Source: Dinoroseobacter shibae DFL 12 = DSM 16493
GTDB lineage: Bacteria; Pseudomonadota; Alphaproteobacteria; Rhodobacterales; Rhodobacteraceae
Assembly (NCBI RefSeq): GCF_000018145.1
Contig: NC_009952.1
Span: 62,001-126,000, forward strand
Reading direction: 5' to 3'
Length of the DNA: 64,000 bases
Shown here: positions 9,093-40,824 of the stretch, piece after piece
Layout of the letters: each line of letters opens with the position of its first letter
Position numbering within the stretch: the first letter of the stretch is position 1
The notes under the pieces: generated by a model
What the model was told of the DNA's origin: nothing
What the model saw: only the letters and a program-made list of their open reading frames with translations
Databases searched by the model: none
Position numbers and translations under genes: made by a program

Positions 9093-10676
9093 TCAGTAGC
9101 CGAGGGCACAGCCGTCCTTGCGGGGGTCGGAGGCGCCTTGCAGAACGCCGGTTTCCGGGTCGATCCAGATCGCCTGGGCGCCGCCGATGGGCGTGTCCGG
9201 CACAATGACCTCATGGCCCATGGCCGACAGCTCGGCGCGGACCGCGTCGGAATAGCCCCGCTCCACCTGAAGGCCATAGCGCGGGTCATGGAAGCTGCGC
9301 GGGGCGTCGAGATTGGCCTGCGGGTGCAGCCCGTAATCGACGAGATTGGTCAGGACGCGCGCATGGCCGTTGGCCTGGTAGGGGCCGCCCATGACACCGA
9401 AGGGCATGACCAGCCGGTCGTTCCGGCGCAGCATGGCGGGGATGATGGTGTGCATGGGGCGCTTGCCGCCGCCTGCCTCGTTCGGGTGGCCGGGCGTGAG
9501 GTTGAACCCTGCGCCGCGGTTGTGGAACAGGATGCCGTAGCGGTCGCTGGCGATGCCGGAGCCGAACCCGTCGAAGATCGAGTAGATCAGCGACACGGCC
9601 ATGCGGTCCGCGTCGACCACGGTGATGAAGATCGTCTCGCGGTGGACGTGTTCCGACAGGGCGGCGGGATCGGCCATGGCCCGCTTGGGATCGATCAGGG
9701 CGGCGAGCGCATCGGCGGTCTCGGGGCGCAACATGTGGTCGAGCCGCGTGGTGTGGTCCGGGTCTGCGACGAAGCGGTTGCGCGCGTCATAGGCGAGCTT
9801 GGCGGCTTCGGCCTCCAGGTGCGCGCGGGCGGCGCCGAAGGGATCGAGTGCGGGCAGGTCGAACCGGGCGAGGATATTGGCCATCAGGATCGCGGTCGCG
9901 CCGTGGCTGTTGGGCGGCAGTTCCACCAGTTCGGAGCCCTTGTAGTCGCCGCGGATGGGCGTGGCGTCCATGCAGGCGGTTGCGGCGAAGTCGTCGCGTG
10001 TGTGGGTACCCCCCGCGGCGCGCAGGCTGGCGACCATGTCCTCGGCCACCGCGCCGGTGTAGAAGCCGTCACGGCCCTCGCGGGCGATCTTGCGCAGCAC
10101 CTCCGCTTGCCGCGGGGCACGGAACATGGCCCCGGCCACGGGCGGTTTGCCGGCTATAAGGTAATGGTCGCGGGCGGTGCCGTTCAGGCGGGCGGAATCG
10201 GTGGCCCAGTCGAAGGCAACGCGGGGCGCGACTGGAATACCCTGTTCGGCATAGTGGATGGCGGGCGCAAGGATCGCGTCGAGTCCGGCGCGGCCCCAGC
10301 GCTCTGACATGTGGCAAAAGGCGTCGACAGCCCCCGGCACCGTGACCGAGGCCGCCGCCGCGGGCGGCATGGTGGTGTGGCCCGCGGCGCGCAGGGCCGC
10401 CGGGTCCAGGGCCGCAGGGGCCTTGCCGGAGCCGTTGAGGCCCAAGACGTCTTCGCTGCCCGCGGGTTTGATCAGGGCAAAGCAGTCGCCGCCGATCCCG
10501 GTCATCTGGGGTTCGCACAGGCCCAGCAGAACCGCGCCGGCGATGGCGGCGTCGAGCGCGTTGCCGCCGTCGCGCAGGATGTCGAGAGCGACCTTGGCGG
10601 CGAGCGGGTGGGACGTCGCGCACATGGCGTTGCTGGCAAAGACGGCGGACCGTCCGGGTAAGTGAAAATCTCGCAT
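9093..10676 (-). CDS. Gamma-glutamyltransferase family protein
   Basis: A 527-residue Ntn-hydrolase of the gamma-glutamyltranspeptidase family. The motif ETIFITVVD places the autoprocessing nucleophile at Thr348, aligned with Thr391 of the E. coli enzyme. GGGKRPMHTIIP and GGPYQANGH-type signatures follow in the small subunit. The family hydrolyses or transfers gamma-glutamyl groups, e.g. from glutathione. No signal peptide is visible, unlike periplasmic GGT, so a cytosolic location is inferred. The start ATG is 62 bp downstream of the anti-sigma gene, on the same strand. Confidence 0.87.
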   Translation of the reverse strand: MRDFHLPGRSAVFASNAMCATSHPLAAKVALDILRDGGNALDAAIAGAVLLGLCEPQMTGIGGDCFALIKPAGSEDVLGLNGSGKAPAALDPAALRAAGHTTMPPAAAASVTVPGAVDAFCHMSERWGRAGLDAILAPAIHYAEQGIPVAPRVAFDWATDSARLNGTARDHYLIAGKPPVAGAMFRAPRQAEVLRKIAREGRDGFYTGAVAEDMVASLRAAGGTHTRDDFAATACMDATPIRGDYKGSELVELPPNSHGATAILMANILARFDLPALDPFGAARAHLEAEAAKLAYDARNRFVADPDHTTRLDHMLRPETADALAALIDPKRAMADPAALSEHVHRETIFITVVDADRMAVSLIYSIFDGFGSGIASDRYGILFHNRGAGFNLTPGHPNEAGGGKRPMHTIIPAMLRRNDRLVMPFGVMGGPYQANGHARVLTNLVDYGLHPQANLDAPRSFHDPRYGLQVERGYSDAVRAELSAMGHEVIVPDTPIGGAQAIWIDPETGVLQGASDPRKDGCALGY

Positions 10677-10737
10677 GATGGGCTCCTCGCTGCGGCCGTC
10701 ACATTAGGCAGCCCGCGCGCGGGTGCAAGGCGAGAGG

Positions 10738-11175
10738 CTAACCGCCGGCGGCGAAGGGGATGATAAACCGCGTCTCGTTCCGCTCCGCGGCGCGGGTATA
10801 GATCAACTCTTCGGTGAGTGTATGGATCAGGTGCCAGCCGAACCCGCCCTCGGGCAGGTCCTGAAGCGGGGTGTCCGAAGTCGGGCACCTGCCTTCGGGC
10901 AGGTTCAGGCCCGGCATGGCCACACCACTGTCATGGAGCACGACGCGCAAACCGGTTTCTTCCAGAGCACAGCGGAGACGCACAACTTCATCCGGGGACT
11001 CACGGTATGCATGTTCGACGACATTGTTCATGGCTTCGGCCAGAACGACCTCGACGATCCCCGCATCCTCGCTCTCGACCCCGGCATCCCGCAGCGCGGC
11101 CAGAAGCTCCGCCAGGGTTTCTCGCACCTGAGCATATCGGCTCGGGAATTCGTAGGTTTTCTCAAATTCCTTCAC
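10738..11175 (-). CDS. Anti-sigma factor serine kinase-like ATPase (RbaW/RsbW type)
   Basis: A 145-residue GHKL-type ATPase. The N-box EVVLAEAMNNVVEHAY and the G-box region GGFGWHLIHTL are visible. RsbW-like proteins bind a sigma factor and phosphorylate the partner STAS protein. The GTG at 11175 is chosen over longer frames because an AGGAGG Shine-Dalgarno lies eight bases before it. The STAS partner is 86 bp upstream in the same direction. In Rhodobacter capsulatus the orthologous pair RbaW/RbaV affects gene transfer agent production and stationary-phase survival; the same role here is an inference. Confidence 0.82.
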   Translation of the reverse strand: MKEFEKTYEFPSRYAQVRETLAELLAALRDAGVESEDAGIVEVVLAEAMNNVVEHAYRESPDEVVRLRCALEETGLRVVLHDSGVAMPGLNLPEGRCPTSDTPLQDLPEGGFGWHLIHTLTEELIYTRAAERNETRFIIPFAAGG

Positions 11176-11261
11176 CCAGAGGCTCCTCCTCGTGGCGGAT
11201 GGCTGTGCGGTGTCGGGGCGCGCGGCGCAACGGGTTTTGCAGGCCATGACGACGGCAGCCC

Positions 11262-29121: not shown

Positions 29122-29604
29122 ATGACACCGGACGATATTGCGGCATTGCCCTATCGCAAATGCGTGGGGGTCGTGCTCTGGGATGGCGCTGGCCGGGTGT
29201 TTACCGGCCAGCGCTATGACAGCGAACTGCCCGCCTGGCAAATGCCCCAGGGCGGCATCGAAGACGGCGAGGATGCGCGCACGGCGGCCCTCCGGGAGTT
29301 GGTCGAGGAAACCGGCGTGGCGGTGGAGAAGGTCGAGGTGCTGGCGGAAACCCCCGACTGGATCAAATACGACCTGCCGCCGGAGATCGTGCCGCGCATC
29401 TGGAAAGGGCGCTACAAGGGCCAGGCCCAGCGCTGGGTGCTGATGAAATTTCTCGGCTCCGACGCGGATATCAACATCGAAACCAAGCATCCCGAGTTCT
29501 CCGAATGGCGTTGGCTGGAGCCTGCCTCGGTCCTCGACAGCATCGTGCCGTTCAAACGCGACGTCTATGAGCAGGTCTTCGACGCCTTCTCAGACTGGCT
29601 TTGA
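29122..29604 (+). CDS. rppH: RNA pyrophosphohydrolase
   Basis: A 160-residue Nudix hydrolase. The Nudix box starts [20 protein letters not shown] and continues TGV, with the metal-binding REXXEE. It also has the RppH-type N-terminus ([13 protein letters not shown]) and the FKRDVYEQV end. RppH removes pyrophosphate from 5' mRNA ends to start decay. The start ATG overlaps nothing but lies two bases after ctpA, so it is the last gene of the gpmI-rooted operon. The 193 bp beyond it hold repeats and the Mu-like element edge. Confidence 0.95.
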
Positions 29605-29756: not shown

Positions 29757-29797
29757 GTGCGAAAATACTCCGGGGGAGGCGCGCAGCGCCGGGGGCA
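29757..29797 (-). repeat. Inverted, partial copy of the dispersed repeat
   Basis: Read on the reverse strand this gives GCGCGCCTCCCCCGGAGTATTTTC, a variant of the repeat tail (CCCCGGGATATTT). It faces copy 1 and ends where the Mu-like element begins. Confidence 0.4.
29793..29797. repeat. Target-site duplication, right side (GGGCA)
   Basis: GGGCA lies directly outside the TG end of the Mu-like element and is repeated exactly at 37750-37754. Five base pairs is the target duplication length known for Mu-type transposition. Confidence 0.9.
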
Positions 29798-29803
29798 TGT
29801 ATG

Positions 29804-29846
29804 CTTTCATCTGGTTTGTACCCCCCTTTTCACTGGGTTTGTACCC
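29804..29846 (+). promoter_or_regulatory. Right-end transposase binding sites (R1, R2)
   Basis: Two direct copies of a roughly 19-bp motif: CTTTCATCTGGTTTGTACC (29804-29822) and TTTTCACTGGGTTTGTACCC (29827-29846). They are adjacent, as R1 and R2 are in Mu, and inverted copies occur at the left end (37660-37679 and 37725-37743). Confidence 0.8.
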
Positions 29847-29895
29847 GGAAGAAACCCCAAGACATCGGGAGTTCCCGGATGGGGATGGGGGTGGG

Positions 29896-30264
29896 TCAGA
29901 CCAGATCGGGGCGGAGTTTTCGGTTCCACCAGGTGTTGATCGCGCTCTTTCCGACGCGGCGTTCGGGGGGAAAGTGCTCGGCCACCTCTGCGGCAAGTTG
30001 GACAAAGCCTGTGTTGTGGATGCGGTCCATAAGGAAGGCTTCCAGTTCCGGGTCGCTGTCTATCTTCGCAGGCACGCCGGTTCGATGGTTCGCAAGATGT
30101 GCGTTGCCGCGCGGTGTGGCTGCGTCCAACTCGTGCGAGTGAAGCACCTTTGAAAGGCTGTTTAAGGCGCGTTTTTGAGCGATCTGCGCGGCATCGGTTT
30201 TCGCCTGGGCGGCCTGTAGGTCGGCAAGGGCGATTGCGAGAAGCGCGTCTTTGGTATTGGCCAT
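29896..30264 (-). CDS. Small helical protein at the element's right end, unassigned
   Basis: A 122-residue protein. The first 45 residues are Ala/Gln/Lys-rich and helical; the C-terminal half (PAKIDSDPELEAFLMDRIHN, then AAEVAEHFPPERRVGKSAINTWW) looks like a small helix-turn-helix domain. This pattern recalls short DNA-binding proteins of phage packaging or regulation, but no family is assigned. It is the last gene before the right terminus, preceded by a 146-bp gap with a GC hairpin (30380-30403). The start has GGAG five bases before the ATG, a good ribosome site. Confidence 0.7.
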   Translation of the reverse strand: MANTKDALLAIALADLQAAQAKTDAAQIAQKRALNSLSKVLHSHELDAATPRGNAHLANHRTGVPAKIDSDPELEAFLMDRIHNTGFVQLAAEVAEHFPPERRVGKSAINTWWNRKLRPDLV

Positions 30265-30410
30265 GGTTTCTCCTGGTCTTGAGGCACCTGCGGGCAGCGC
30301 GGGAACTTCGCTCAGACGGCTCGCGCCGCCTTCCGACCCTCGCGAAGCGGAGATTGCGTGCGCTCCCCGCAGGTTTCGGCCCGCCGGACGTGTGTTCGGC
30401 GGGTGTCTCG

Positions 30411-31343
30411 TCAGCGGATATCGAAGTCCGAGGGCTTCAGACCGAGCTGGTCGCAGAGGGACTGGACGACCGTCTCAGGCGGGGCCGACGCGTCGGCTGG
30501 CAGGCCGGGGATTGCTGCCCGCTTGAAGAGATGGCCATAGGCCGGGGTCGTAGATGCAATGAAGTCCTCGAAGCTGTCGGGGTCCTGCGCACATAGCGCC
30601 GTTGCCCAGCTCCGCATGGCGGGCGTGATATAGCCCGCATGCAGAGCCTCGGTGACGCGCGCTTCGACCAGGTACTCGGAGAGGGTCGCCTTGGTGGCCC
30701 CCCGGTCCTGCATCAGCTCCTTCAGGGCGGCGATGGGGACATACTTCGCCGGATCCGGTTCCGCCGTTTCGGCCTTGCTGCGCAGCTCGGCAATTGCCGC
30801 CATGATCGCATCCGCGTCGGCGGCGGGTTCCAGCTCCAATGCCTCGGCAATCGCAGCCAGGGCGGAGGTGTCTTCGGGGTCGGTCATGTCGTCTCCTTCG
30901 CTGGCAAGGGCAGTCAGGTCGAGATTGGGGCGGTGCACCAGGCTCGCGCCCTTGAGCCGCGTGATCCTGCCGCCCGTCTTGGTGTGCATCAGGACCGGGC
31001 TCAGGAAGCGGTACTCGCGCGCCTCCAACATCTCGCGCGCCTTCGCGGTCCAGCTCACATCGCCCCAGATGCCATCGGGGCGCACTTCGAGCCCCTTGAT
31101 CCAACCGGCGGCGGGCACGGGGCCGTTCTTCTGCCGGGCCGGGTCGTCGCCCTGGTGTTCGTAGTCGATGGGCAGGTCGATCCCGCCCTGGTGAAAGAGC
31201 GCGACCAGCTCGTCGGGGTCGCTCAGCTCGAACACGCGGCCATCGCGGCCCCGGATGCGGCCCAGGGGCAGCAGGTGGACCTTGCCAGGCGCGCGGCCTT
31301 CGGGCAGGTCCACCGCCGCGCAGAGGGAGGTTTCCAACGCCAT
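30411..31343 (-). CDS. Mu gpI-like head protease/scaffold
   Basis: A 310-residue protein matching the Mu-like prophage I family. Recognisable blocks are LPLGRIRGRDGRVFELSDPD, LPIDYEHQGD, GPVPAAGWIKGLEVRPDGIWG and FLSPVLMHTKTGGRITRLKG with HRPNLDL. In Mu, I is the capsid maturation protease and its C-terminal part (Z) is the scaffold. Here the C-terminal 140 residues are acidic and helical, as expected for a scaffold. It starts four bases after the gpT stop. In Mu, I precedes T; here it follows. Confidence 0.9.
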   Translation of the reverse strand: MALETSLCAAVDLPEGRAPGKVHLLPLGRIRGRDGRVFELSDPDELVALFHQGGIDLPIDYEHQGDDPARQKNGPVPAAGWIKGLEVRPDGIWGDVSWTAKAREMLEAREYRFLSPVLMHTKTGGRITRLKGASLVHRPNLDLTALASEGDDMTDPEDTSALAAIAEALELEPAADADAIMAAIAELRSKAETAEPDPAKYVPIAALKELMQDRGATKATLSEYLVEARVTEALHAGYITPAMRSWATALCAQDPDSFEDFIASTTPAYGHLFKRAAIPGLPADASAPPETVVQSLCDQLGLKPSDFDIR

Positions 31344-31347
31344 GGGC

Positions 31348-32247
31348 TCAGACCGTCACATAGGGGGTCACGATCAGCTCGGCGGTGTTCTTCCACGGGT
31401 TCGAGCCGCCGCCATCGCTCGTCTCGGTGTTCAGGACCAGGCGCGCCTGGTGTTCCAGGCTAGGCGGAACCACCAGCGTCGTCGGTGTGATCCCGAGGAT
31501 GCGCCCCTTGTCGCCCCGCAGCTCCATCATCGCGGCGCGGGCGGAGGAGTAGGTTTCCAGGTTCAGCGGCTGCTTGCTGGCATAGGCCATCTGCCAGAGC
31601 CCGAACCCCGCATTCACCCGCGCGCGCACCCCGTAAAGATACTTGTCGGTCATGAAGACGCGCTCGTCGTTCGGGCGGTTTACCATGTCGAAGGTGTAAT
31701 CGACGCGCGCCTGCCAGATCAGAGGCCGGATCGCGCGCGACGTATCGAGAAGGAACCAAGGTGCGTCGGTCCCATCTGCCATATTGCTCACCGGCACCAT
31801 GTTGCCATCTGCATCGGGCGTCTGGTGTTCGGTGTCGAAATAATTCTGCCCATCGAAGCAGGGTGTGGTGAAGCCGTCCTTCAGCAACCCGAAGATCAGC
31901 TCGTCGGGATGTTGACGTGCCAGGTGGCCCATCTCGGCAAACATCGGCTTTAAGAGCCCGAGCCTGTCGTCCTCGAAGTCCTCGCGGCGAATGTCCACGG
32001 TGCTCTCGAACTTTCGGTTCAGGATCGTGAAGCTGTGGGCTTCCAGATCCTTGATGACGCGCTCGCCATCCAGCCATTCGCGCAGCTGCGGGAACTGCCC
32101 GAGCCAGCCATAGGTCTCCTGCCGGTTGCCGCTGGCCACGGTCATCGCGACCTTGGAGTAATGCGCGGGCGCGTTGGTGTAGGCATCGGTGTAGATCGTC
32201 TTGAAGCCCTGGAAGGCCAGATCGACATTTGCGTCGTTCAGGATCAT
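31348..32247 (-). CDS. Mu gpT-like major head (capsid) protein
   Basis: A 299-residue protein of the Mu major head subunit family: GNRQETYGWLGQFPQLREW, FTILNRKFESTVDIRREDFE and DDRLGLLKPMFAEMG align with the hallmark segments of Mu gpT (305 aa). It should assemble the icosahedral shell. The frame is intact. Its ATG overlaps the stop of the Mor-like gene by four bases, and gpI follows, so the three form one transcription unit. No decoration, portal or tail gene accompanies it. Confidence 0.92.
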   Translation of the reverse strand: MILNDANVDLAFQGFKTIYTDAYTNAPAHYSKVAMTVASGNRQETYGWLGQFPQLREWLDGERVIKDLEAHSFTILNRKFESTVDIRREDFEDDRLGLLKPMFAEMGHLARQHPDELIFGLLKDGFTTPCFDGQNYFDTEHQTPDADGNMVPVSNMADGTDAPWFLLDTSRAIRPLIWQARVDYTFDMVNRPNDERVFMTDKYLYGVRARVNAGFGLWQMAYASKQPLNLETYSSARAAMMELRGDKGRILGITPTTLVVPPSLEHQARLVLNTETSDGGGSNPWKNTAELIVTPYVTV

Positions 32248-32684
32248 GGGTCGGTTTCCTCTGAGGTTTGAAAGGGTCGGGGTGCGAGCGCACCGGCTTC
32301 AACAAGCCTTCGCCGGTGGCGTGTGACAGATCGTTCGGTGGTGTCGAGCGCCTGGGCGATGACGCGCACGCTGCGCCCGGCCTCGAAGTGCCGATAGGCG
32401 GTCCAGCGCATCCGCGCGGTGCGGGAGGCAGGACCGAAGGGGATGCTAAGCCGCCCGGCCCCGTAGGTCTTCAGAAGCCAGGTCAGGGCGGCATTGTGGG
32501 CGTGCCCCGGCTTCACCTTCACCGGGATGAGAAGGTCCTTGCCACCATGTTGGATAAGGAAGGCGCGCGTCGTTTGCGCACCGACCGCCCGTTCCATGTC
32601 GGCGATCATCGGCGGCATGTAGAGGCCGATGCGGCGGCACTCTGCGGCGGTGGGATAAAGAAGCTCTGCAGGTGATGCGATCAT
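32244..32684 (-). CDS. Mor/C-like transcription activator
   Basis: A 146-residue DNA-binding protein. The second half has GRLSIPFG followed by a helix-turn-helix (RSVRVIAQALDTTERSVTRHRR), resembling the YIPKG...helix-turn-helix arrangement of Mor and C, which switch on middle and late genes in Mu. The N-terminal part (ECRRIGLYMPPMIADMERAV) is like a dimerisation segment. The ATG at 32684 is chosen; the frame is open upstream in sequence with no such features. Its coupling to gpT suggests it controls the capsid unit. Assignment to the Mor family is moderate. Confidence 0.65.
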   Translation of the reverse strand: MIASPAELLYPTAAECRRIGLYMPPMIADMERAVGAQTTRAFLIQHGGKDLLIPVKVKPGHAHNAALTWLLKTYGAGRLSIPFGPASRTARMRWTAYRHFEAGRSVRVIAQALDTTERSVTRHRRRLVEAGALAPRPFQTSEETDP

Positions 32685-33102
32685 GCGCCCGGTGATGCCA
32701 GCGCGACCTGCAACCTGTCGCCCCCGACACTTGGCGGGAGGCGCAGCCAGGTGGTCGGAACCCCACCACGGCACATACGACCGGCTCTCCGAAGGGTGTG
32801 GCTTGGCTGCGTGGCAGTGATACCAGACCGCGCCGCCCGGTGGAAGCGGGCCGGTGGAGCGGGTGCCTGGGGGGACGTCACTTCCCCCGCAGCTCGGACG
32901 GCTGGGTAGACGGGATACTTGACTCAGGCACTCAAACCGTACCCAAATCGCCCGCGCGTCGCAATCCCGGGCTTGGGTGCTGCCGGAACCATGTCTGAGA
33001 CTTCGATTTAAGGGGTGTTTAAGGGGTGCCTCTGTTTTTCTTGTGGGTATGGGGCCAACCGAGGCAGAAGCCCGTCAGCGGGCCGCTCAGCCGCTCCCAT
33101 GC
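32685..33102. other. Control gap between early and capsid units of the element
   Basis: A 418-bp stretch without a confident gene. It carries a tandem of CCCCTTAAA (reverse strand, near 33005-33022), suited to an activator or polymerase site, and a GTG-started frame of 66 codons (32681-32881, reverse) whose stop overlaps the Mor-like ATG. That frame has no recognised product and could be a leader peptide or the scar of a deletion. The promoter for the Mor-gpT-gpI unit must lie here. Confidence 0.45.
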
Positions 33103-33130
33103 AAAAGGGCCGCGCCCGGCGGCACGGCCC
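33103..33130 (-). terminator. Terminator of the element's early operon
   Basis: On the reverse strand a stem of GGGCCG-type arms (33107-33116 with 33121-33130, one mismatch, CGGC loop) is followed by TTTT. It lies 23 bp after the GemA stop. Confidence 0.8.
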
Positions 33131-33153
33131 CTCTGGTTCGGTTTTGGGGGCGT

Positions 33154-33567
33154 TCAGGCGGCGCGCGCCTTCATCGCCTTGAGCGCGGTGATGATCTTCG
33201 GCGCAGTCGCGGCCGAGAGGAACCGCAGGCTGGAGAGCTTCCAGTACCGCTCAAGCCAGAGGTTCAGCTCCGCCTCCCCGGCCTTGCCCAGGGTATACTC
33301 CTGCCAGAGCACGCGGATCAGCTCGATCTGCGCGAAGCTCGCCATGCCGGGCCGGGTGCCATAGCTCGGCCCCTTGGTCCGCAGGGGTGCGAAGCCGCAG
33401 AACTCGAAGAAGCCCATCATCGCGTTGAGGCCGTCCTGGTCCAGCTCCTTGGTGCTGGTCACGCCCGCGATCTGGACCAGGGCGGCGCGGAACCCCTCGT
33501 CGCTCATGCCGAGCTTGGACTTCGCAACCCAGATCAGCTTTAGCTGGTTTTTCGTGATGGTCATCAT
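33154..33567 (-). CDS. GemA/Mu gp16-like regulatory protein
   Basis: A 137-residue protein of the Gp16/GemA family. The N-terminal KNQLKLIWVAKSKLGMSDEG and RAALVQIAGVTSTKELDQDG, followed by FAQIELIRVLWQEY, are typical. In Mu, GemA modulates host gene expression and DNA topology. The start ATG at 33567 overlaps the preceding stop by four bases (ATGA) and has GAGG five bases upstream. It is the last gene of the early unit. Confidence 0.88.
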   Translation of the reverse strand: MMTITKNQLKLIWVAKSKLGMSDEGFRAALVQIAGVTSTKELDQDGLNAMMGFFEFCGFAPLRTKGPSYGTRPGMASFAQIELIRVLWQEYTLGKAGEAELNLWLERYWKLSSLRFLSAATAPKIITALKAMKARAA

Positions 33568-33848
33568 GGGTTCCTCATCGTGCTGCGCATGTAGGAGGCG
33601 ACTTCCGACAGAACCGCGCCTTCGGTCGCGGCGCGTCGTTCGGCGTAGTTGGACAGCAGGTCCAGCAGGAAGATAAGCGTTCCGGGATCGTGGGTGTCCA
33701 TGTCCGTCACCATGAGCTTGAGCAACTTCAACGCTCCGGCGAACTCGCCGAGCGTGTATTCGACCTCCGCCGCAGCATCGGCCACGGCCTTGGCCCGGTG
33801 CGCCCTCAGATGAAAGCTCTCCCATTCGGTCAGGTCGATGTCAGTCAT
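33564..33848 (-). CDS. Small early protein of the Mu-like element (94 aa)
   Basis: A 94-residue, acidic, mostly helical protein (MTDIDLTEWESFHLRAHRAK...). No family is recognised. The start at 33848 overlaps the end of the preceding gene (33841) and its stop overlaps GemA, so it belongs to the MuA-MuB-GemA transcript. In transposable phages, genes in this position are semi-essential early genes of unknown or host-modulating function. Confidence 0.7.
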   Translation of the reverse strand: MTDIDLTEWESFHLRAHRAKAVADAAAEVEYTLGEFAGALKLLKLMVTDMDTHDPGTLIFLLDLLSNYAERRAATEGAVLSEVASYMRSTMRNP

Positions 33849-34140
33849 CTGCGCCCCCTTCCGGTTGCCGCACGAAGGTGCCGCGCGCGATGACACGGTG
33901 CAACGCGTCCGCCTGGAGATGGGCCTGCTCGGCAACCCGGATAAGCGCCTCGAAGTCCTTGAGGACAGGGTGGTCGCTCGCCAGTTCGGCGCGCAAGGCC
34001 TCCAGCATCCGTTTGCCATGGTCCAGCACCCCCAACGGGTAGGCGCACTGAATTTCGAGAACCGGCTGGAGGCCATCTTTCTCCCAGGCGCGCATCGGAA
34101 TGCAGAAGAGATAAGGGAACTCTTGTGCCTGCTCAGACAT
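33841..34140 (-). CDS. Small early protein of the Mu-like element (99 aa)
   Basis: A 99-residue protein beginning MSEQAQEFPYLFCIPMRAWE, with no recognised domain. The ATG at 34140 has GGGAGAG eight bases upstream; an in-frame ATG at 34164 that overlaps MuB is an alternative. It lies 20 bp after muB and overlaps the next small gene by eight bases. A hydrophobic patch near the start (YLFCIPM) does not look like a membrane segment. Confidence 0.65.
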   Translation of the reverse strand: MSEQAQEFPYLFCIPMRAWEKDGLQPVLEIQCAYPLGVLDHGKRMLEALRAELASDHPVLKDFEALIRVAEQAHLQADALHRVIARGTFVRQPEGGADD

Positions 34141-34160
34141 GCTTACTTCTCTCCCACCCA

Positions 34161-34931
34161 TCAAAAGCCTCCTTGGCCGGAAAGGCCCAGATAGAGCATT
34201 GCTGCCTTCACGTCCGACGCGGCGATCTTGTCAGAGCTGGCGTGTTTTGCCGCCTGGGCCAGAGTGCGCTGCACATCGGCAAGGCCTCCGTACCGTCGCG
34301 CCATCACCGAAAGAGCATCGCAGATTGCCGGATCGGTAATGCCGCGCGACCGGACGACAGCCAAAACATCGGGCTTGGGCACCGAGCGGATCACGACGGG
34401 CCGCACCATCCGACGCCGCAGCTGCGGCACGGAGCTGATCGTGTCGGCCAAGGAAAGATCGCCGCAGAAGACCACCGAAAAGCAAGCTTCTTCCGCCATC
34501 GCGCGCACCCATTCATAGGCGTCGAAGTTGAAGCCGCCGCGCGGGTTGTAGTTCGCGAGGTACTGCGCTTCATCGAAGATGACGACTTGTTCAGCGCCAA
34601 TCGCGTCCATGATCCGATAGCGGTCTTCGCGCAGTCTCCGACTGTTCGGCGCGCCAAGTTCGAGCCGTTCCATCATCACATTGGCCAGGTCCCAGATACG
34701 GCCCTCTCCCGCGACCATTGTGAACATCTGAGCGTTCTTGCTTTCGTGCGTGTAGCGGCGCAGCGTCTCGGACTTTCCGACGCCGGGAACGCCCGCCACC
34801 ATGGTAAGGGTGCCGGGCTCATCCGCGACCAGCCGAAGGGATCGAAGGATATTGCTGGCCGTCTCCGTCATGACCATGCCCGCCGGTGGCGGGACTGATC
34901 CGGGGTTGATCAGTTGCAGATGCTCTGCCAT
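34161..34931 (-). CDS. MuB-like transposition target ATPase
   Basis: A 256-residue AAA+ ATPase. Walker A is GVPGVGKS (residues 47-54) and Walker B is VVIFDEAQ (Asp120, Glu121); the arginine-rich RRRMVRPVVIRSVP region matches sensor II and DNA binding. In Mu, MuB forms filaments on target DNA, activates MuA and prevents self-insertion. The C-terminal fold (GLADVQRTLAQAAKHA) is the typical helical lid. The gene starts 67 bp after muA on the same strand. Confidence 0.93.
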   Translation of the reverse strand: MAEHLQLINPGSVPPPAGMVMTETASNILRSLRLVADEPGTLTMVAGVPGVGKSETLRRYTHESKNAQMFTMVAGEGRIWDLANVMMERLELGAPNSRRLREDRYRIMDAIGAEQVVIFDEAQYLANYNPRGGFNFDAYEWVRAMAEEACFSVVFCGDLSLADTISSVPQLRRRMVRPVVIRSVPKPDVLAVVRSRGITDPAICDALSVMARRYGGLADVQRTLAQAAKHASSDKIAASDVKAAMLYLGLSGQGGF

Positions 34932-34998
34932 TTTGCTCTCCGTTTAGCTTTGCGGGCTTTCGCCTGCTGGTGAATGGCCAGTGAGGTGTTCCAGCGCC

Positions 34999-36948
34999 TC
35001 ACTGGCCCCTTAGGACCCGCACCGGATCGAACCCGGTGACGCGGTCGAATTGCTTCAAAACTTCAGCTTCGTTATCGGTTTCAGGCTTCGGCTTGGCGGC
35101 TTTGAGCGGCCCGCCGAAACGCGCGCCCACCACCTTCCCCGGCGCGGGCGGCGGCATGTCGTCCTCCCGTGAGGCGGCGTCCAGGGCGGCCTTGGCTCGG
35201 AGATATTCCGCATCCTCCAGGTAGGCGTTTGCCTCCTCGGCCTTGCGCGCCGCATCCCTTGCGGCCTTCCGGTTGCGCGCTGCCTCCCGAATGCCATCGG
35301 AGCTGTTGTAATCCCCACGCCTGACCGGCTCGATCTGGTCGCAGATGAAATTTCGCTCCGCATCATAAGCGATTGCCGGTGCGCTCAGATCGTCTGGGTC
35401 ACGGGCCAGGAGGATCTTCGTTCCGCCCTTGAGGTTCTTCGCGCCGCCGCGCCGGTAGGGTGCCAAGGCCTCTTGCGTTTCCGGCCCGCCATAGGTCCAG
35501 TGATCGACCTTGATCTGCGTGTTTCTATCGACCGTCGCAGGCGTCCAGATCAAACCGGCGCGATAGAGCTGGTCCTTAGTCGGATACCGTACCGGACGCC
35601 CAAGCTCCGCGCGCTTCGTGAGCCCGTCGCGCAGCACCTGATCGTATGAGCGGCCTTGCGCGCCCTGGTTCCGACGTCCTTCCTCGCGATTGAGACGTCT
35701 GACGCCACGGGCCAGCAGTGCCTTGCATTCATCGACCGGGATAGGATTGGTCTCCGAATTGGGTCGGGCACCCGGTTTGTGACCGGTATGCGCACCCTTG
35801 AAGTCTGGCCCGTCGTCGTCCGAGCGCGACATGATCGCGTAGAGACGCTCGGCGATCTTCGCCTGCGCATTACCCGGCAGGGCAAACTGCACATCGATCC
35901 CCAGGACCTCGCAAATTCCCATCGGCTGGACGCCCTTCGCGACGCCATTGCGAAAGCGATGCGGCGTCCCGCCCGCCACCTTGTGCCCGGCAAAGGCCGA
36001 ACCGTTATCGGTATAGAGCTTGTCGAATATTCCATGGTTTGCGCAGGCTCGCTTGATCAGCCGCACGGTGGCTGTTGCGTTCTCCGACGGGGCAAGCTCG
36101 AAGTCGAGAACCGCGTTTGAGCTGACATCGACCAGCACCAGCATGACCGGGCGCACGGCTTTTCCGTCGCCCCAGTCCACGAACACATCGATTTCGCGAC
36201 CGTCGAGCGACACCACGTCCAGCGCCAACAGGCTTGTCTTGTCTCGCTGAACCGGGATGGACAGGTTTTTCGCGGTCTCTGCGGTCCCTTGGCGGGCGTG
36301 CAGTTTCTGCACCTCGCTCAGCTCCATCCACCGCCTGTAGACGGTGATGTAGGGAGGCACTTTCCAGCCCAGCTCGCGGCCCGCGTCGCGCGTGCGCCGC
36401 CAGGCTTCTGCAAGCGGCCATTCCGGAGCCGCGTCCCGGATCTGTGTCAGGAAGAACCGCCAGGCTTCATCAGTGAACTCGGCCCGTTTGGTCGTCCCCT
36501 TGTACTCGTCCAGCAGCGCGGGCGCGAAGTTGATCGGATCGATCCCTTCGACGCGGCGTAAAATCTCCCTCAAACAGGGCTTTGAGAGCCCTTTCGCGCC
36601 GAACTTCTCATGCACGATCCGCAGCCGGTCCGACCAGCGCACGCCCGGCCCCAACGCCACCAGCACCCGCGCCACCGCCGCCCGCCGCTCCGCCCGGTCC
36701 CGCCGCGACGGCGACGCCTCAAAAAACGCCTCATGCGCCGCCGCGTCGTAAGTGCCAGGGGAAAGATGCAAGTGCTCCAGCTCAGCATTCAAAAGGCTAA
36801 AACGGAGACAGTCGGGAAGGTCCTGAACCGCTACCAGATACGAATTTTTATAGGGCTCCAACGGAATGTCTTCCCGACGCAACCATTGCAAAGCCCCCTT
36901 CTTGCTAGAGGGTACAGGCCCTATGCCGAGCAAGTCGCGTATGCGCAT
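34999..36948 (-). CDS. MuA-like DDE transposase
   Basis: A 649-residue transposase. The catalytic triad is Asp244 (LALDVVS), Asp314 (LYTDNGSAF) and Glu367 (AKIAERLYAI), numbered from the ATG at 36948. The N-terminal third (GALQWLRREDIP..., winged HTH-like) should bind the terminal repeats; the C-terminal part is Lys/Ala-rich and should contact MuB. A TTG at 36960 is a possible start. MuA makes the strand-transfer complex at both ends. The neighbouring repressor gene is divergent, with an operator-like repeat between. Confidence 0.95.
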   Translation of the reverse strand: MRIRDLLGIGPVPSSKKGALQWLRREDIPLEPYKNSYLVAVQDLPDCLRFSLLNAELEHLHLSPGTYDAAAHEAFFEASPSRRDRAERRAAVARVLVALGPGVRWSDRLRIVHEKFGAKGLSKPCLREILRRVEGIDPINFAPALLDEYKGTTKRAEFTDEAWRFFLTQIRDAAPEWPLAEAWRRTRDAGRELGWKVPPYITVYRRWMELSEVQKLHARQGTAETAKNLSIPVQRDKTSLLALDVVSLDGREIDVFVDWGDGKAVRPVMLVLVDVSSNAVLDFELAPSENATATVRLIKRACANHGIFDKLYTDNGSAFAGHKVAGGTPHRFRNGVAKGVQPMGICEVLGIDVQFALPGNAQAKIAERLYAIMSRSDDDGPDFKGAHTGHKPGARPNSETNPIPVDECKALLARGVRRLNREEGRRNQGAQGRSYDQVLRDGLTKRAELGRPVRYPTKDQLYRAGLIWTPATVDRNTQIKVDHWTYGGPETQEALAPYRRGGAKNLKGGTKILLARDPDDLSAPAIAYDAERNFICDQIEPVRRGDYNSSDGIREAARNRKAARDAARKAEEANAYLEDAEYLRAKAALDAASREDDMPPPAPGKVVGARFGGPLKAAKPKPETDNEAEVLKQFDRVTGFDPVRVLRGQ

Positions 36949-36998
36949 CTTTGATTGCAACCGAGCAAGCCTTCTAGTATCGTTTCATTTGAGGGATA

Positions 36999-37016
36999 CC
37001 GTAAATAAATACGGTT
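36999..37016. promoter_or_regulatory. Operator-like inverted repeat between repressor and muA
   Basis: ACCGTA-AATAAA-TACGGT is a 6-bp inverted repeat with an AT-rich 6-bp centre in the 113-bp divergent gap. The location matches a repressor operator that controls the early promoter. Confidence 0.55.
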
Positions 37017-37061
37017 ATCAACATCTGAATACAGAAAGCCAGCTTTTTGTCTGTTGAGCAA

Positions 37062-37538
37062 ATGAAATCCATCGACCTCTCGAAGCGGCTCAAAGAAGTG
37101 ATGCTTGATCGAAACTTGACAGTCAGCGATCTCGCAAACGCCGCTGGAGTGTCAAAGAGTTCGATGGAGAAGTACTTGGCAGGGCCGAGTTCACCAAGAG
37201 CAACGGCAATTGCCAACTTGTGCGCGGCTTACGAGCTAAGCCCCTCTTGGCTTCTGTTCGGAGTTCAGGAGCACGACGAGGTGGCTGAAGCTATTCAGTT
37301 CACAATCTCCGTTCGCGACACGCTTGCGCAACACTTGCCGCGACTGAGTGCTGATCATGCTCTTCTCCGCATACTCACTGAAGAGGAGCCAGGCTCCGAA
37401 ATTTGGCGTAGAGAGTTAAACAACGACTTCGCTTACCGGGTCGCAAAGCGCGCCTATAAGGACTATGTGGATGCGCGCGCAAAGGCCGGTGTTGTCGTGG
37501 GCGAGCCGATAGACGTTTCGCAGTCTCGGGAACCGTGA
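37062..37538 (+). CDS. XRE-type repressor of the Mu-like element
   Basis: A 158-residue protein with an N-terminal helix-turn-helix (LTVSDLANAAGVSKSSMEKY, residues 19-38) of the XRE/Cro type, then a helical C-terminal part ending EPIDVSQSREP. It is divergent from muA, the position of the c repressor in Mu. The ATG at 37062 is used; a TTG at 37047 would add five codons. The gene is AT-richer than the chromosome around it. Mu c is not XRE-like in sequence, so this is analogous rather than closely related. Confidence 0.82.
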   Translation: MKSIDLSKRLKEVMLDRNLTVSDLANAAGVSKSSMEKYLAGPSSPRATAIANLCAAYELSPSWLLFGVQEHDEVAEAIQFTISVRDTLAQHLPRLSADHALLRILTEEEPGSEIWRRELNNDFAYRVAKRAYKDYVDARAKAGVVVGEPIDVSQSREP

Positions 37539-37540
37539 AC

Positions 37541-37560
37541 CGTTACCAGATCTGGTAACG
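37541..37560. promoter_or_regulatory. Perfect 20-bp palindrome after the repressor gene
   Basis: CGTTACCAGA is followed at once by its exact reverse complement, starting two bases after the repressor stop codon. There is no loop, so a protein operator is more likely than a terminator. Confidence 0.5.
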
Positions 37561-37659
37561 ATCAAGGGCAAATCAGCCTACAACCCCGAACAAAAACGTT
37601 TGAAATCATTGAACAATTTCTTCGAGCCCGTGCGCAAACCCGGCTGAATTCGCCGAAAC

Positions 37660-37749
37660 GGCTCAAACCCAGTGAAAACGCCCCCTCCTAACCCCTTGAA
37701 ATCATTGCGCCCGATTTTTCAGAGGGTTCAAACCTGTTGAAAGCCGTCA
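37660..37749 (-). promoter_or_regulatory. Left-end transposase binding sites (L1, L2)
   Basis: Read from the left terminus, L1 is CTTTCAACAGGTTTGAACC (37743-37725) and L2 is TTTTCACTGGGTTTGAGCC (37678-37660), inverted copies of R1 and R2. The two sites are far apart, as at the left end of Mu. A 12-bp repeat, TTGAAATCATTG, occurs at 37600-37611 and between them at 37696-37707. Confidence 0.75.
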
Positions 37750-37754
37750 GGGCA
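37750..37754. repeat. Target-site duplication, left side (GGGCA)
   Basis: Exact repeat of 29793-29797, directly outside the CA end of the Mu-like element. Confidence 0.9.
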
Positions 37755-37839: not shown

Positions 37840-40824
37840 ATGTTCGTCGAACTCTGCGCCTTGTCCAATTTCACCTTTCTGACCGGCGCCTCCCATCCCG
37901 AAGACTATGCGCAGAAGGCCGCCCTTCTGGGCCTACCCGCCTTTGCCATCGCCGATGTGAATTCCGTGGCCGGAATTGTGCGGGCCCATACGGAACTGAA
38001 GGAAATCGCCCGGCAAATCGACTTGTGCGCGACGGCCGAGGCGCGGGATGGTCCCATCGGGCCGCCCTGGCCCGGCCCGCGATCCGAGGATAGCGCCGCG
38101 GTTCGCAACCTGCCGCGGCTTCTGCCTGCGGCTCGATTGCGCTTGCGCGAGGGGACCGAGATCACCGCCCTGCCCGAGGATCGCGCAGCCTGGGGTCGGC
38201 TCAGCCGGCTCTTGACCCTCGGCCAACGTCGCGCGCCCAAGGGGCGCTGCCATCTCGACCTGGCGGATGTGCTGGATGAGGCGGATGGGATGCAATTGCT
38301 CCTCCACGGGCTGCCAGAGGCACCGCCGGTGCAGCTCGGCGCGGGCCGAACATGGCCACAGGCGGAGGCGTTGACGCGCCGCTTTCCCGGCAAGGTCAGC
38401 CTGCTGATGACCCCGGCTTATGACGGCCAGGACCGCGTGCGTTTCGATCGGTGGGCGGCGCTGGCCGACACCTTGGGCCTGCCCACGGTCGCTTCCGCGG
38501 CGCCGCTCTTTCATTGCGCGACCCATCGACGCCTTGCGGATGTGTTGACCGCCATTCGCAATGGCTGCCGTGTCGAGGACCTTGGTCGCACCGCGCAGGC
38601 CCATGCAGAACAGCGTCTGCGTTCCGAGGCCGAGATGCTGCGCCTGTTTCGCGGGCACGAGGACGCGGTGCACCGGACCGCCGAGATCGCCGCGCGCTGC
38701 AGCTTCTGCCTCAGCCAGTTGCGCTATGAATATCCTTCCGAAACCCGCGGCGGCGAGACCGCCCAGGACCGCCTTTCCCGATTGGCCCATGAAGGCTTGC
38801 GCTGGCGCTACCGCAACGGCGCGCCGCCCAAGGTCCGGAAGATGCTCGACCATGAGCTGCGCCTGATCGGCAAGCTCGGCTATGCGCCCTATTTCCTGAC
38901 GGTCAACGACATCGTCGCCTTCGCCCGCTCGCGCGATATCCTTTGCCAGGGGCGCGGCTCGGCGGCCAATTCGGTGGTCTGCTACTGCCTCGGCATCACG
39001 TCGGTCTCGCCCGAGGTCGGCACCATGGTGTTCGAGCGCTTCGTCTCCGAGGCCCGCGACGAGCCACCGGATATCGACGTGGATTTCGAGCATGAGCGCC
39101 GCGAGGAGGTGATCCAGCATATCTATGAACGCTACGGTCGTCACCGCGCCGGGCTTTGTGCCACGGTGATCCATTACCGGGGCAAGCGAGCGGTGCGCGA
39201 GGTGGGTCGCGCCATGGGGCTGAGCAGCGACACGCTCTCGGCGCTCAGCTCGCAGATCTGGGGCTTCGGGTCCGTGCGCGGCATCGAAGAGACGCGCTTG
39301 CGCGAGATCGGGCTCGACCCCACGGATCGCCGTCTGCGCCAGACCATCGACCTGATTTACCGAATCCAGGGCTTCCCGCGGCATCTCAGCCAGCATGTGG
39401 GTGGTTTCATCATTACCGAAGGCCGGCTCGACGAGCTGGTGCCGGTGGAGAACGCCACCATGGTGGACCGCACGGTGGTGTGCTGGGACAAGGACGATCT
39501 CGACAGTCTTGGCATCCTGAAAATCGATATCCTCGCGCTCGGCATGCTGTCTTGCGTGCGCAAGGCATTCGACCTGATCGCCCATCATCACGGGGCCAAA
39601 TTCAGCCTTGCCACCCTGCCGGTCGAGGATCCTGCGGTCTACGACATGCTCTGCCGGGCGGACAGCATCGGTGTTTTCCAGGTGGAAAGCCGGGCCCAGA
39701 TGAACTTCCTGCCGCGGATGCGCCCGCGCTGCTTCTACGACCTGGTGATCCAGGTCGCCATTGTTCGCCCGGGGCCGATCCAGGGGGACATGGTTCATCC
39801 CTTCATCCGCCGCCGCAACGGCGAGGAGCAGGTGGAATTTCCCTCCGACGCCTTGGGCGAGGTGCTGAGCAAGACCCTCGGCGTGCCGCTCTTCCAGGAG
39901 CAGGCAATGCAGATCGCCATCGTCGGTGCGGGGTTCGACCCGTCCGAGGCCGACCGCCTGCGCCGGGCGCTGGCCACCTTCAAGAAACACGGAAACGTAT
40001 CGGAATTTCGCACCCGGTTTCTCAAGGGCATGGCGCAAAACGGTTATGACACGGCGTTTGCGGAGCGGTGCTTTTCCCAGATCGAGGGTTTCGGCAGCTA
40101 TGGTTTTCCCGAAAGCCATGCGGCGAGCTTCGCGCTGCTGGTTTATGCCTCGGCCTGGATCAAGTGCCACCACCCGGGCATCTTCGCCTGTGCACTGCTG
40201 AACGCGCAGCCCATGGGGTTCTATGCGCCCGCGCAGATCATGCGCGACGCCCGTGAGCATGGCGTGACCGTGCGCCCGGTCTGCGTCAATGCAAGCTTCT
40301 GGGACAACACGATGGAGCCGGACGGGCAAGGCGGGCTGGCCCTGCGCCTCGGCTTTCGCCAGGTAAAGGGGCTGGCGCAGGAGGATGCCGAGTGGCTCGT
40401 CAGCGCGCGCGGCAATGGCTACGGCACGGTGGCGGACCTGTGGCGCCGGGCGGGGTTGGGCCAGGCCGTACTGACCCGCTTGGCCGAGGCGGATGCCTTC
40501 GCCGAACTGGGGCTTGGCCGCCGCGACGCGCTCTGGCAGGCACGCGCGATCCGGGGGGACGCACCTCTGCCGTTGTTTTCCGGCGACATGGACGGAGAGG
40601 GCGGGGCCGAGCCGCCCGTGGTGTTGCCGCCGATGAGCCTGGGCGAAGAGGTGGTGGAGGATTTCGTGGCCATGCGCCTGAGCCTGCGGGCCCATCCCGT
40701 GGCCCTGCTCCGGCATGTTCTGACCCCGGGCATGGGCGATCCGGAGCTTGCCGGTCGAGTGCAGGGGCCGCGTGGTGCAGGGCGGAGCGAGGGGCCAGCC
40801 CCTCGCGCTCCCCGGGATATTTGA
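37840..40824 (+). CDS. dnaE2: Error-prone DNA polymerase DnaE2, C-terminally shortened
   Basis: A 994-residue C-family polymerase. The N-terminal PHP domain starts ELCALSNFTFLTGASHPEDY. Catalytic acidic residues are seen in PDIDVDFEHERR and LKIDILALG. Normal DnaE2 is roughly 1,050-1,150 residues and ends with an OB-fold region after a LSLRAHPVALLR block. Here the block occurs at about residue 950, and the frame then runs into the dispersed repeat and stops, so the OB-fold part is missing. DnaE2 works with ImuA and ImuB in mutagenic repair; these are not adjacent. A LexA box lies upstream. Confidence 0.9.
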   Translation: MFVELCALSNFTFLTGASHPEDYAQKAALLGLPAFAIADVNSVAGIVRAHTELKEIARQIDLCATAEARDGPIGPPWPGPRSEDSAAVRNLPRLLPAARLRLREGTEITALPEDRAAWGRLSRLLTLGQRRAPKGRCHLDLADVLDEADGMQLLLHGLPEAPPVQLGAGRTWPQAEALTRRFPGKVSLLMTPAYDGQDRVRFDRWAALADTLGLPTVASAAPLFHCATHRRLADVLTAIRNGCRVEDLGRTAQAHAEQRLRSEAEMLRLFRGHEDAVHRTAEIAARCSFCLSQLRYEYPSETRGGETAQDRLSRLAHEGLRWRYRNGAPPKVRKMLDHELRLIGKLGYAPYFLTVNDIVAFARSRDILCQGRGSAANSVVCYCLGITSVSPEVGTMVFERFVSEARDEPPDIDVDFEHERREEVIQHIYERYGRHRAGLCATVIHYRGKRAVREVGRAMGLSSDTLSALSSQIWGFGSVRGIEETRLREIGLDPTDRRLRQTIDLIYRIQGFPRHLSQHVGGFIITEGRLDELVPVENATMVDRTVVCWDKDDLDSLGILKIDILALGMLSCVRKAFDLIAHHHGAKFSLATLPVEDPAVYDMLCRADSIGVFQVESRAQMNFLPRMRPRCFYDLVIQVAIVRPGPIQGDMVHPFIRRRNGEEQVEFPSDALGEVLSKTLGVPLFQEQAMQIAIVGAGFDPSEADRLRRALATFKKHGNVSEFRTRFLKGMAQNGYDTAFAERCFSQIEGFGSYGFPESHAASFALLVYASAWIKCHHPGIFACALLNAQPMGFYAPAQIMRDAREHGVTVRPVCVNASFWDNTMEPDGQGGLALRLGFRQVKGLAQEDAEWLVSARGNGYGTVADLWRRAGLGQAVLTRLAEADAFAELGLGRRDALWQARAIRGDAPLPLFSGDMDGEGGAEPPVVLPPMSLGEEVVEDFVAMRLSLRAHPVALLRHVLTPGMGDPELAGRVQGPRGAGRSEGPAPRAPRDI
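40787..40822 (+). repeat. Dispersed hairpin repeat, copy 2 (inside dnaE2 end)
   Basis: Stem GCGAGGGG/CCCCTCGC (40787-40794, 40799-40806) closed by CCAG, then CTCCCCGGGATATTTG. It supplies the last codons and the stop of dnaE2, so it seems to have replaced the normal 3' end of the gene. Confidence 0.75.

Follow-up and report, generated by a model that had tools for sequence, protein, structure and literature searches.

A capsid-encoding Mu-type element of Dinoroseobacter shibae belongs to a conserved mobile family, most likely of transposing phage satellites

Phage satellites known so far either reshape the capsid of a helper phage or bring a complete head module together with its motor. P4, SaPI and PLE are described as remodeling helper capsids and bringing no capsid gene (PMC11389934, PMC4936722), and head-neck-tail proteins were not identified for AH14b (PMC4936722). 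The capsid-forming phage-inducible chromosomal islands (cfPICIs) have genes for portal, connectors, both terminases and HNH; MulchRoom and MiniFlayer are satellites of virulent phages and have terminase, portal, scaffold and adapter genes of their own (PMC10690885). Here an element at positions 29798-37749 of a 64,000-nt stretch of the Dinoroseobacter shibae DFL 12 = DSM 16493 genome (NC_009952.1, positions 62,001 to 126,000; referred to as the window) was analyzed. It combines Mu-type transposition genes with genes for a capsid and its protease. It is a member of what is, with near certainty, a conserved mobile family, and satellite status is the most likely reading of this family.

The ends of the element were read exactly. 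It spans 7,952 bp, reads TGTATG...CGTCA on the plus strand and is flanked by a perfect 5-bp target duplication (GGGCA), which confirms the termini, duplication and length given in an earlier note on this DNA (the original prediction). A MuA DDE transposase, MuB, TG..CA ends and the 5-bp duplication identify it as a Mu-type transposable element. The gene calls were checked against Pfam and PHROGs, and the features of the element are as follows (aa, amino acids; HTH, helix-turn-helix).

29793..29797, no strand: left copy of the target duplication GGGCA, by direct reading
29798..29850, plus strand: left terminus (3', small-gene side), TGTATGCTTTCATCTGGTTTGTACCC, with the motif repeated further in
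29896..30264, minus strand: 122-aa 3' gene, an N-terminal helix and an HTH, resembling the N-terminal DNA-binding domain of Mu-like small terminases
30411..31343, minus strand: gpI head maturation protease, 310 aa (PF10123, 2.8e-61)
31348..32247, minus strand: gpT major head protein, 299 aa (PF10124, 2.2e-127)
32244..32774, minus strand: Mor-like late activator (phrog_836, 3e-8), GTG start, exact start uncertain
33154..33567, minus strand: GemA (family match, 2.7e-24)
33564..33848, minus strand: 94-aa protein (s94), no family at E <=0.01
33841..34164, minus strand: 107-aa protein (s107), no family at E <=0.01
34161..34931, minus strand: MuB transposition ATPase (MuB_C, 1.7e-22)
34999..36960, minus strand: MuA DDE transposase, 653 aa from TTG (DDE_2, 6e-15; phrog_310, 1e-75)
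37047..37538, plus strand: divergent repressor (HTH match)
37700..37749, minus strand: right terminus (repressor/MuA side), inward reading TGACGGCTTTCAACAGGTTTGAACCC
37750..37754, no strand: right copy of GGGCA

The minus-strand genes thus run from MuA through MuB, the two small genes, GemA, the Mor-like activator, gpT and gpI to the 3' gene, and the HTH repressor diverges from them on the plus strand. The Mor-like protein was scanned as 151 aa from an internal codon; its open reading frame (ORF) is 176 aa from the GTG. The matches bear out the gene identities proposed earlier (repressor, MuA, MuB, GemA, a Mor/C-like regulator, gpT, gpI and small genes), and the 122-aa protein, like the other two small ones, matched no Pfam or PHROGs family at E <=0.01. 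The part of gpI beyond the protease, at its C-terminus, is presumably a scaffold, by analogy with Mu. Frames were open throughout, with four-base overlaps at three junctions (MuB/s107, s94/GemA and Mor/gpT), in agreement with the intact frames and several such overlaps first described. As for the DDE triad, D314 and E367 of the original prediction were invariant across 10 aligned transposases, while its D244 fell in a variable column and the conserved first Asp is D249; numbered from the TTG start, the catalytic residues are D253, D318 and E371. Portal, terminase, neck and tail families gave no match at E <=0.1 among the 10 genes, as the claim of an element without packaging or tail genes had held; genes essential for virions are thus lacking, as expected of a phage satellite. 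The order of gpT and gpI is the reverse of that in Mu-like phages. This order, a decayed second copy in the same genome and numerous relatives go beyond what had been noted before.

The gpT search covered 394 genomes of the same bacterial family (E <=0.001), and 76 gave some match, many merely weak and partial. Among 29 gpT loci examined, 17 had a best gpT piece 52-70% identical to that of the window and gpI downstream of gpT, with GemA usually and Mor and the 3' gene sometimes detected; in the other 12 (gpT 43-47% identical), gpI lay upstream, L029 excepted, in which no gpI was detected. When wider stretches were inspected, the order Rep, MuA, MuB, GemA, Mor, gpT, gpI, 3' gene recurred in other genera, with individual genes undetected or broken in some loci. 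TG...CA ends with a shared 5-bp duplication were searched for in 29 sequences including the window and then, in a second search, in 36 loci. The copies resolved, with length and duplication, were:

G354: 7,951 bp, GAAAC
G353: 8,173 bp, CCCGG
G386a: 10,815 bp, CCCGG, insert in MuA
G099: 8,263 bp, TTTGC
G159: 8,301 bp, GCGGC
G031: 8,621 bp, GCAGA
G346: 6,900 bp, ACTTG; MuB, GemA and 3' gene not detected
G239: 8,892 bp, GCTGA
G382: 8,527 bp, CCCCC
L085 (second search): 11,018 bp, AGAAC, MuA interrupted
L092 (second search): 4,896 bp, GGGGG, no gpI
L102, Rhodovulum marinum (second search): 9,274 bp, GCCAA, tape measure in place of gpI

The nine copies from the first search scored 35.5-38.5 against a null maximum of 29.0 (45 reversed-sequence controls). 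They are the loci that passed among 15 tested; G387 (28.5, null maximum 29.0), G154, G341, G173, G242 and G274 failed. From the second search, three of the four loci tested (L085, L092 and L102) scored 32-33 against 23.5-26.5 in 12 controls. The ends of L080 (R. capsulatus SP108) failed the controls, and its pair was not the best on retest; L075 had both end motifs, and a matching duplication was not found. In all, 12 MuA-type copies besides the window, some with broken or missing genes, thus have ends that score above the null and each a perfect 5-bp duplication of its own. The original prediction had proposed a search for the same gene set with different target duplications, and this is what was found, in other genera. 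These ends and duplications indicate that a family of mostly 7-9 kb moves as a unit by Mu-type transposition. Several element copies per genome, many broken or interrupted by insertions, were seen in G386 (L042-L049) and G066 (L050-L054), and IMG/VR lists family fragments as viral contigs (L152-L165, L168 and L175). L082 comes from a short contig assigned to a Burkholderiaceae bin, likely in error, since its gpT falls among those of Alphaproteobacteria.

The gpT tree contained 54 element rows, some of them near-identical, and 51 phage rows (every second of 102); split or stop-bearing gpT and loci of undecided gene order were omitted, except G346, with X at the stop. Three label changes separated elements from phages, against a mean of 35.3 in shuffled trees, and none of 500 shuffles was as low. 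One supported branch held 49 of the 54 element rows and element rows only; a wider group of all 54 together with L087 and L180 had a support of 93, below the mark for supported branches. In L087, an Agrobacterium vitis record (9111-11179), gpI precedes gpT and an element-type 3' end follows gpT directly; a search for its 5' end found none. Its gpT splits off close to the base of the element group, and L087 possibly retains the ancestral arrangement.

Ratios of nonsynonymous to synonymous substitution (dN/dS) were determined for nine chosen locus pairs, three G386 pairs, G239/G382 and L084/G341. For locus pairs with dS >=0.29, they were 0.07-0.18 for gpT (eight pairs), 0.10-0.32 for gpI (seven of these) and 0.12-0.19 for the 3' gene (three of these). 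One near-identical pair gave 0.31 for gpT at a dS of 0.012, and the G386 copies, some with a broken gpI, gave values up to 0.23 (gpT) and 0.57 (gpI). Such ratios indicate purifying selection on gpT and gpI; by the same measure, the family appears to keep its capsid gene, usually the protease, and the HTH 3' gene under selection.

These data bear on two other readings. All parts of the element are Mu-like, and deletion derivatives do exist (L092 without gpI, and a 2.6-kb copy in the same genome, see below), as they should if the element were a Mu-like prophage cut down internally, either by one clean private deletion, as had been suggested, or by repeated independent deletions. A private deletion is rejected because the same compact gene set occurs at other sites, with other duplications and in other genera. 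The placement of 49 of 54 capsids in one supported branch, the reversed gpT-gpI order, the absence of the 3' gene from the phage records searched (see below) and purifying selection also count against deletion in either form, and we hold it to be very improbable. Alternatively, the element would be an ordinary transposon with Mu-type ends whose capsid genes are passengers, and its own MuA and MuB should indeed suffice for movement within a genome. Yet gpT and gpI have been selected over deep divergence and persist where no transposase was found, which leaves this the least probable of the explanations considered.

A gene census was carried out on six-frame translations of 54 element sequences, which include contig fragments, windows trimmed around gpT and near-identical members, with hidden Markov models (HMMs) grown from proteins of the Mu-like phage RS1 on 102 phage loci. 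gpT was found in 54 of 54 and gpI in 50 (all but L092, L102, L157 and L091), a Z-type head protein in 13 and a gpG neck protein in 11. Portal, large terminase (TerL), F, head-tail adaptor and tube HMMs matched none of the 54; on 103 phage sequences, the same HMMs gave 78, 62, 76, 90 and 23 matches, respectively. The full-length small terminase (TerS) HMM likewise matched 0 of 54, as did those for J and endolysin, which have little power (only 6 and 11 of 103 phage sequences matched). No HMMs were grown for contractile tails, so this tail class is not excluded by HMM; the bounded elements leave little room for it. Tape-measure genes were found in nine of the 54: after gpT or gpI in L157, L102, L091, L097, L099 and L130 (PHROGs and Pfam), and before gpT in L168, L103 and L096 (phmmer). 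Judged from these matches, the cassettes differ between elements, and what they carry is a protein of the head or neck or a tape measure. A capsid and protease without a motor could also make closed shells, as HK97-fold proteins can, and the element might then be a domesticated, encapsulin-like protein compartment on a transposon. This is highly unlikely given the tape-measure and neck genes of the relatives and the presence of a Mor-type late activator and a repressor; moreover, no cargo enzyme was seen among the ORFs scanned, which were not all of those in the members.

A further branch appears to have dispensed with the transposase. L097 and L099 (Rhizobium) and L130 (Rhodospirillales) have elements of 8.1-8.8 kb that carry Mor, gpT, gpI and a tape measure; their inverted ends with a perfect duplication share 17-19 of 24 positions, against 8-12 in nine reversed controls. 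No transposase was found among the scanned proteins of this branch (the scan took in some but not all small ORFs, and the L103 element is truncated at its contig end). HTH_Tnp_Mu_1 domains occur in L097, L130 and L103, and a ParB-like protein in L099; the latter (phrog_3264) is common to L099 (7367-8890) and a Mu-like prophage of another Rhizobium (L242, 5926-6825). The genome of L103, Rhizobium rhizogenes GBBC3284, contains a complete Mu-like prophage of 40,466 bp, which is flanked by CTTGG at either end and encodes MuA, MuB, TerS, TerL, portal, F, I, Z and T. The ends of L097 match its ends at 18/24 and 19/24 positions, and in the 60-kb region both prophage ends were the top two scores among 7,385 TG sites for each L097 end. 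L168 is an IMG/VR contig with a gpT sister to that of L103, and over 24 of 24 bases its 3' end is identical to one end of the prophage. The 3' end of L099 matches repeats flanking the prophage region of G414, at E 4e-7 and 2e-6 on the side upstream of MuA and at 4e-4 on the other; no pair of ends with a duplication could be assigned to this prophage. The simplest reading is that the branch would be mobilized in trans by phages like the 40,466-bp prophage.

Nineteen copies of the 3' gene were aligned (stop-bearing rows omitted) and showed a variable N-terminal part and a conserved HTH. A search of 50,697 phage records (E <=1) returned nothing for this gene. The only PHROG matched by more than one member was the small terminase family phrog_426 (7/19, best 0.0025), to which the TerS of RS1 and L212 belong at 2e-40 and 6e-50. 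Compared with 56 Mu-like TerS sequences, the 3'-gene profile gave P values of 3.7e-5 and 9e-6 (probability 71 and 83%), against 0.099-0.55 for control profiles from six element families. A structural model showed a 47-residue helix followed by the HTH (mean pLDDT 88, pTM 0.50). The 3' gene therefore shares, at moderate scores, the HTH that small terminases (DUF3486-type, phrog_426) carry in their N-terminal domain; in the 3' protein, it lies at the C-terminus behind the long helix, and the part of small terminases that follows the HTH was not matched. A search of solved structures with the 3'-gene profile gave 0 matches. TerS-like DNA binding by the 3' protein is probable from these profiles, and a role in packaging would be a guess.

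The Mu portal family PF06074 was detected in 50 of the 394 genomes, namely in 7 of 20 element genomes and 43 of 374 others (one-sided Fisher p 0.007, uncorrected for genome size or mobile-DNA load; p 0.013 with the decayed or partial G066, G178 and G293 counted as non-element). Rhodobacter capsulatus SP108, of a species used in the laboratory, has both the gene set of the element (L080, with tentative ends) and Mu-like portal genes, with three matches of which one is partial. The occurrence of assembly parts without a detected motor, and of most element genomes without a resident Mu-like portal (13/20; 18/25 named), could also mean that the capsid and tape-measure copies act as a poison when invading Mu-like phages assemble, to the protection of the host, and that the element DNA is left unpackaged. 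A selected protease, a TerS-like DNA-binding gene and a transposition module exceed the needs of a poison, and such a purely interfering element is unlikely, if less so than the other alternatives. Satellites often combine interference with packaging of their own.

The reading preferred here, which we consider likely, is that of a transposing phage satellite with a capsid, a protease and sometimes a tape measure of its own; portal, terminase and tail would come from a helper, as would the transposase in one branch. Its dependence on a helper, as first suggested for this element, is supported indirectly because the gene census, the transposase-less relatives with prophage-like ends, the co-occurrence with portals and the TerS-like 3' gene point the same way; we infer that a helper would package the element in the element's own capsid.

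Several observations weigh against this reading. The evidence here is from sequence, and the portal statistic ignores genome size and mobile-DNA load. One of the seven portal-positive element genomes (G274) has a partial match. Leaving the D. shibae genome aside, the family sample has 19 element genomes, and 12 of these are without a Mu-like portal, as are 18 of 25 named genomes (the 25, of which 7 have it, include that of L087). The D. shibae genome has no Mu-like portal either, so the window copy is without a resident Mu-like helper. For the 3' gene, a generic HTH is the fallback reading, because Pfam HTH_32 matches 9 of its 19 members (best 3e-7); the likeness to TerS is confined to the DNA-binding domain, and Foldseek with the model of the 3' protein gave nothing significant. 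A 3' gene of the window type was not found in the Rhizobium elements by tblastn, and the ends of L097 and L099 had no match with the prophages of their own genomes (G414 and G415, respectively). Decayed copies also exist (G066 and parts of G386), with a stop in gpT of G099 and G346 and an interrupted MuA in G386a and L085.

If the element is a satellite, its repressor would keep it silent until an active Mu-like helper is present, when MuA and MuB would replicate it by transposition; in the Rhizobium branch, the transposase of the helper would act on helper-like ends. Mor would then switch on gpT, gpI and the 3' gene, and gpT and gpI would form a satellite-made, probably smaller, head around the portal of the helper. 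The TerS-like 3' protein may steer the large terminase of the helper to element DNA, and the helper tail would be joined to the satellite head, with tape-measure-bearing members also setting tail length. We lean, by a small degree, toward an old class of transposon satellites, each with a TerS-like adaptor and with virion parts that set size (capsid and protease/scaffold, in some also neck and tape measure), and with a borrowed vertex motor and tail, so that a small head and short tail would be built on the portal and tail parts of the helper; one branch would have given up its transposase and kept helper-type ends as a ticket for helper-driven transposition.

The element lies between a gene that ends at 29604, which we take to be of Nudix type from its translation, and one that starts at 37840, presumably a DnaE2-like polymerase. 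The left-terminus motifs (29798..29850) are probably MuA binding sites, and a similar motif occurs at the same end of relatives. The empty insertion site in the window folds into a stable palindrome. Of 15 folded empty sites of MuA-type elements, 9 were within the most stable 9% of 45-mers of the same locus (9/13 were hairpin-like when the unresolved G387 and L080 were dropped); for MuA-less elements, 0 of 3 sites were unusually stable. The MuA-type family thus seems to prefer terminator-like palindromes as targets. The second, decayed copy in the D. shibae genome (2.6 kb; contig 1, 3219678-3222267; L037, 5679-8268) is in the opposite orientation. It retains both ends, part of gpI, the 3' gene adjoining one end and broken MuA/MuB pieces, and is 97.5% identical over 1.4 kb in its retained part (the gpI part and the 3' gene by one end). 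It is flanked by a 9-bp, not 5-bp, repeat at the same kind of palindromic site. Exact target-site specificity was rejected, the 16-bp word common to the sites of both copies being found once elsewhere in the genome; many insertion sites are hairpins nonetheless.

The family is apparently undescribed. No Mu-type satellite was described in the literature searched (accessible parts of PMC4936722, PMC11389934, PMC10690885, PMC4545795 and PMC5488378; most subscription papers and bioRxiv lay outside it, so this absence is weak). The claim of a new type holds for the architecture, as far as that literature reaches, and not for capsid-encoding satellites as such, which have already been published as cfPICIs and as MulchRoom/MiniFlayer. 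If the proposed lifestyle is true, the modules for head, motor and tail could belong to separate replicons, the family would be a natural test of what determines head size and tail length, and helper-driven transposition would join the spreading modes of satellites. It would also account for the short 'incomplete Mu prophages' seen in genomes of alphaproteobacteria and in IMG/VR contigs.

Among described systems, the Mu-like transposable siphophages of Rhodobacterales (RS1, RC1 and, by name, RcapMu) are close in their genes: by annotation, RS1 shares the transposase, a MuB-type protein, the late activator, the head protease and gpT, the last 47% identical to that of the window. RS1 is larger, at 40,231 bp, has genes for TerS, portal, neck and tail, and differs in its I-Z-T order (TerS, portal, minor head, neck, protease, head protein, gpT). 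Mu-like phages in general have portal, terminase and tail genes and gpI before gpT, and the window element has neither feature. Encapsulins are HK97-fold shell proteins without a packaging motor, and we know of none on a transposing, Mor-controlled element with tape-measure variants. The element resembles cfPICIs in its own major capsid and head protease and in the inferred use of helper tails. It differs from them in that portal, head-tail adaptor and TerL were not found in the 54 family sequences (gpG-type neck in 11/54) and in its movement by MuA-type transposition with a 5-bp duplication; cfPICIs use a site-specific integrase and an att site, where the window element has MuA. MulchRoom and MiniFlayer share a satellite-encoded capsid module; PICI/SaPI, P4, PLE, PICMI and tycheposons are likewise small helper-dependent elements, many of them redirecting virions, with different mobility genes; and in the AH14b/AH14a pair, a small prophage is also thought to use the virions of its helper. 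Whereas known satellites reshape a helper capsid or bring a whole head module with its motor, the present family seems to do neither: with no motor found, it keeps the coat and ruler parts and moves by transposition.

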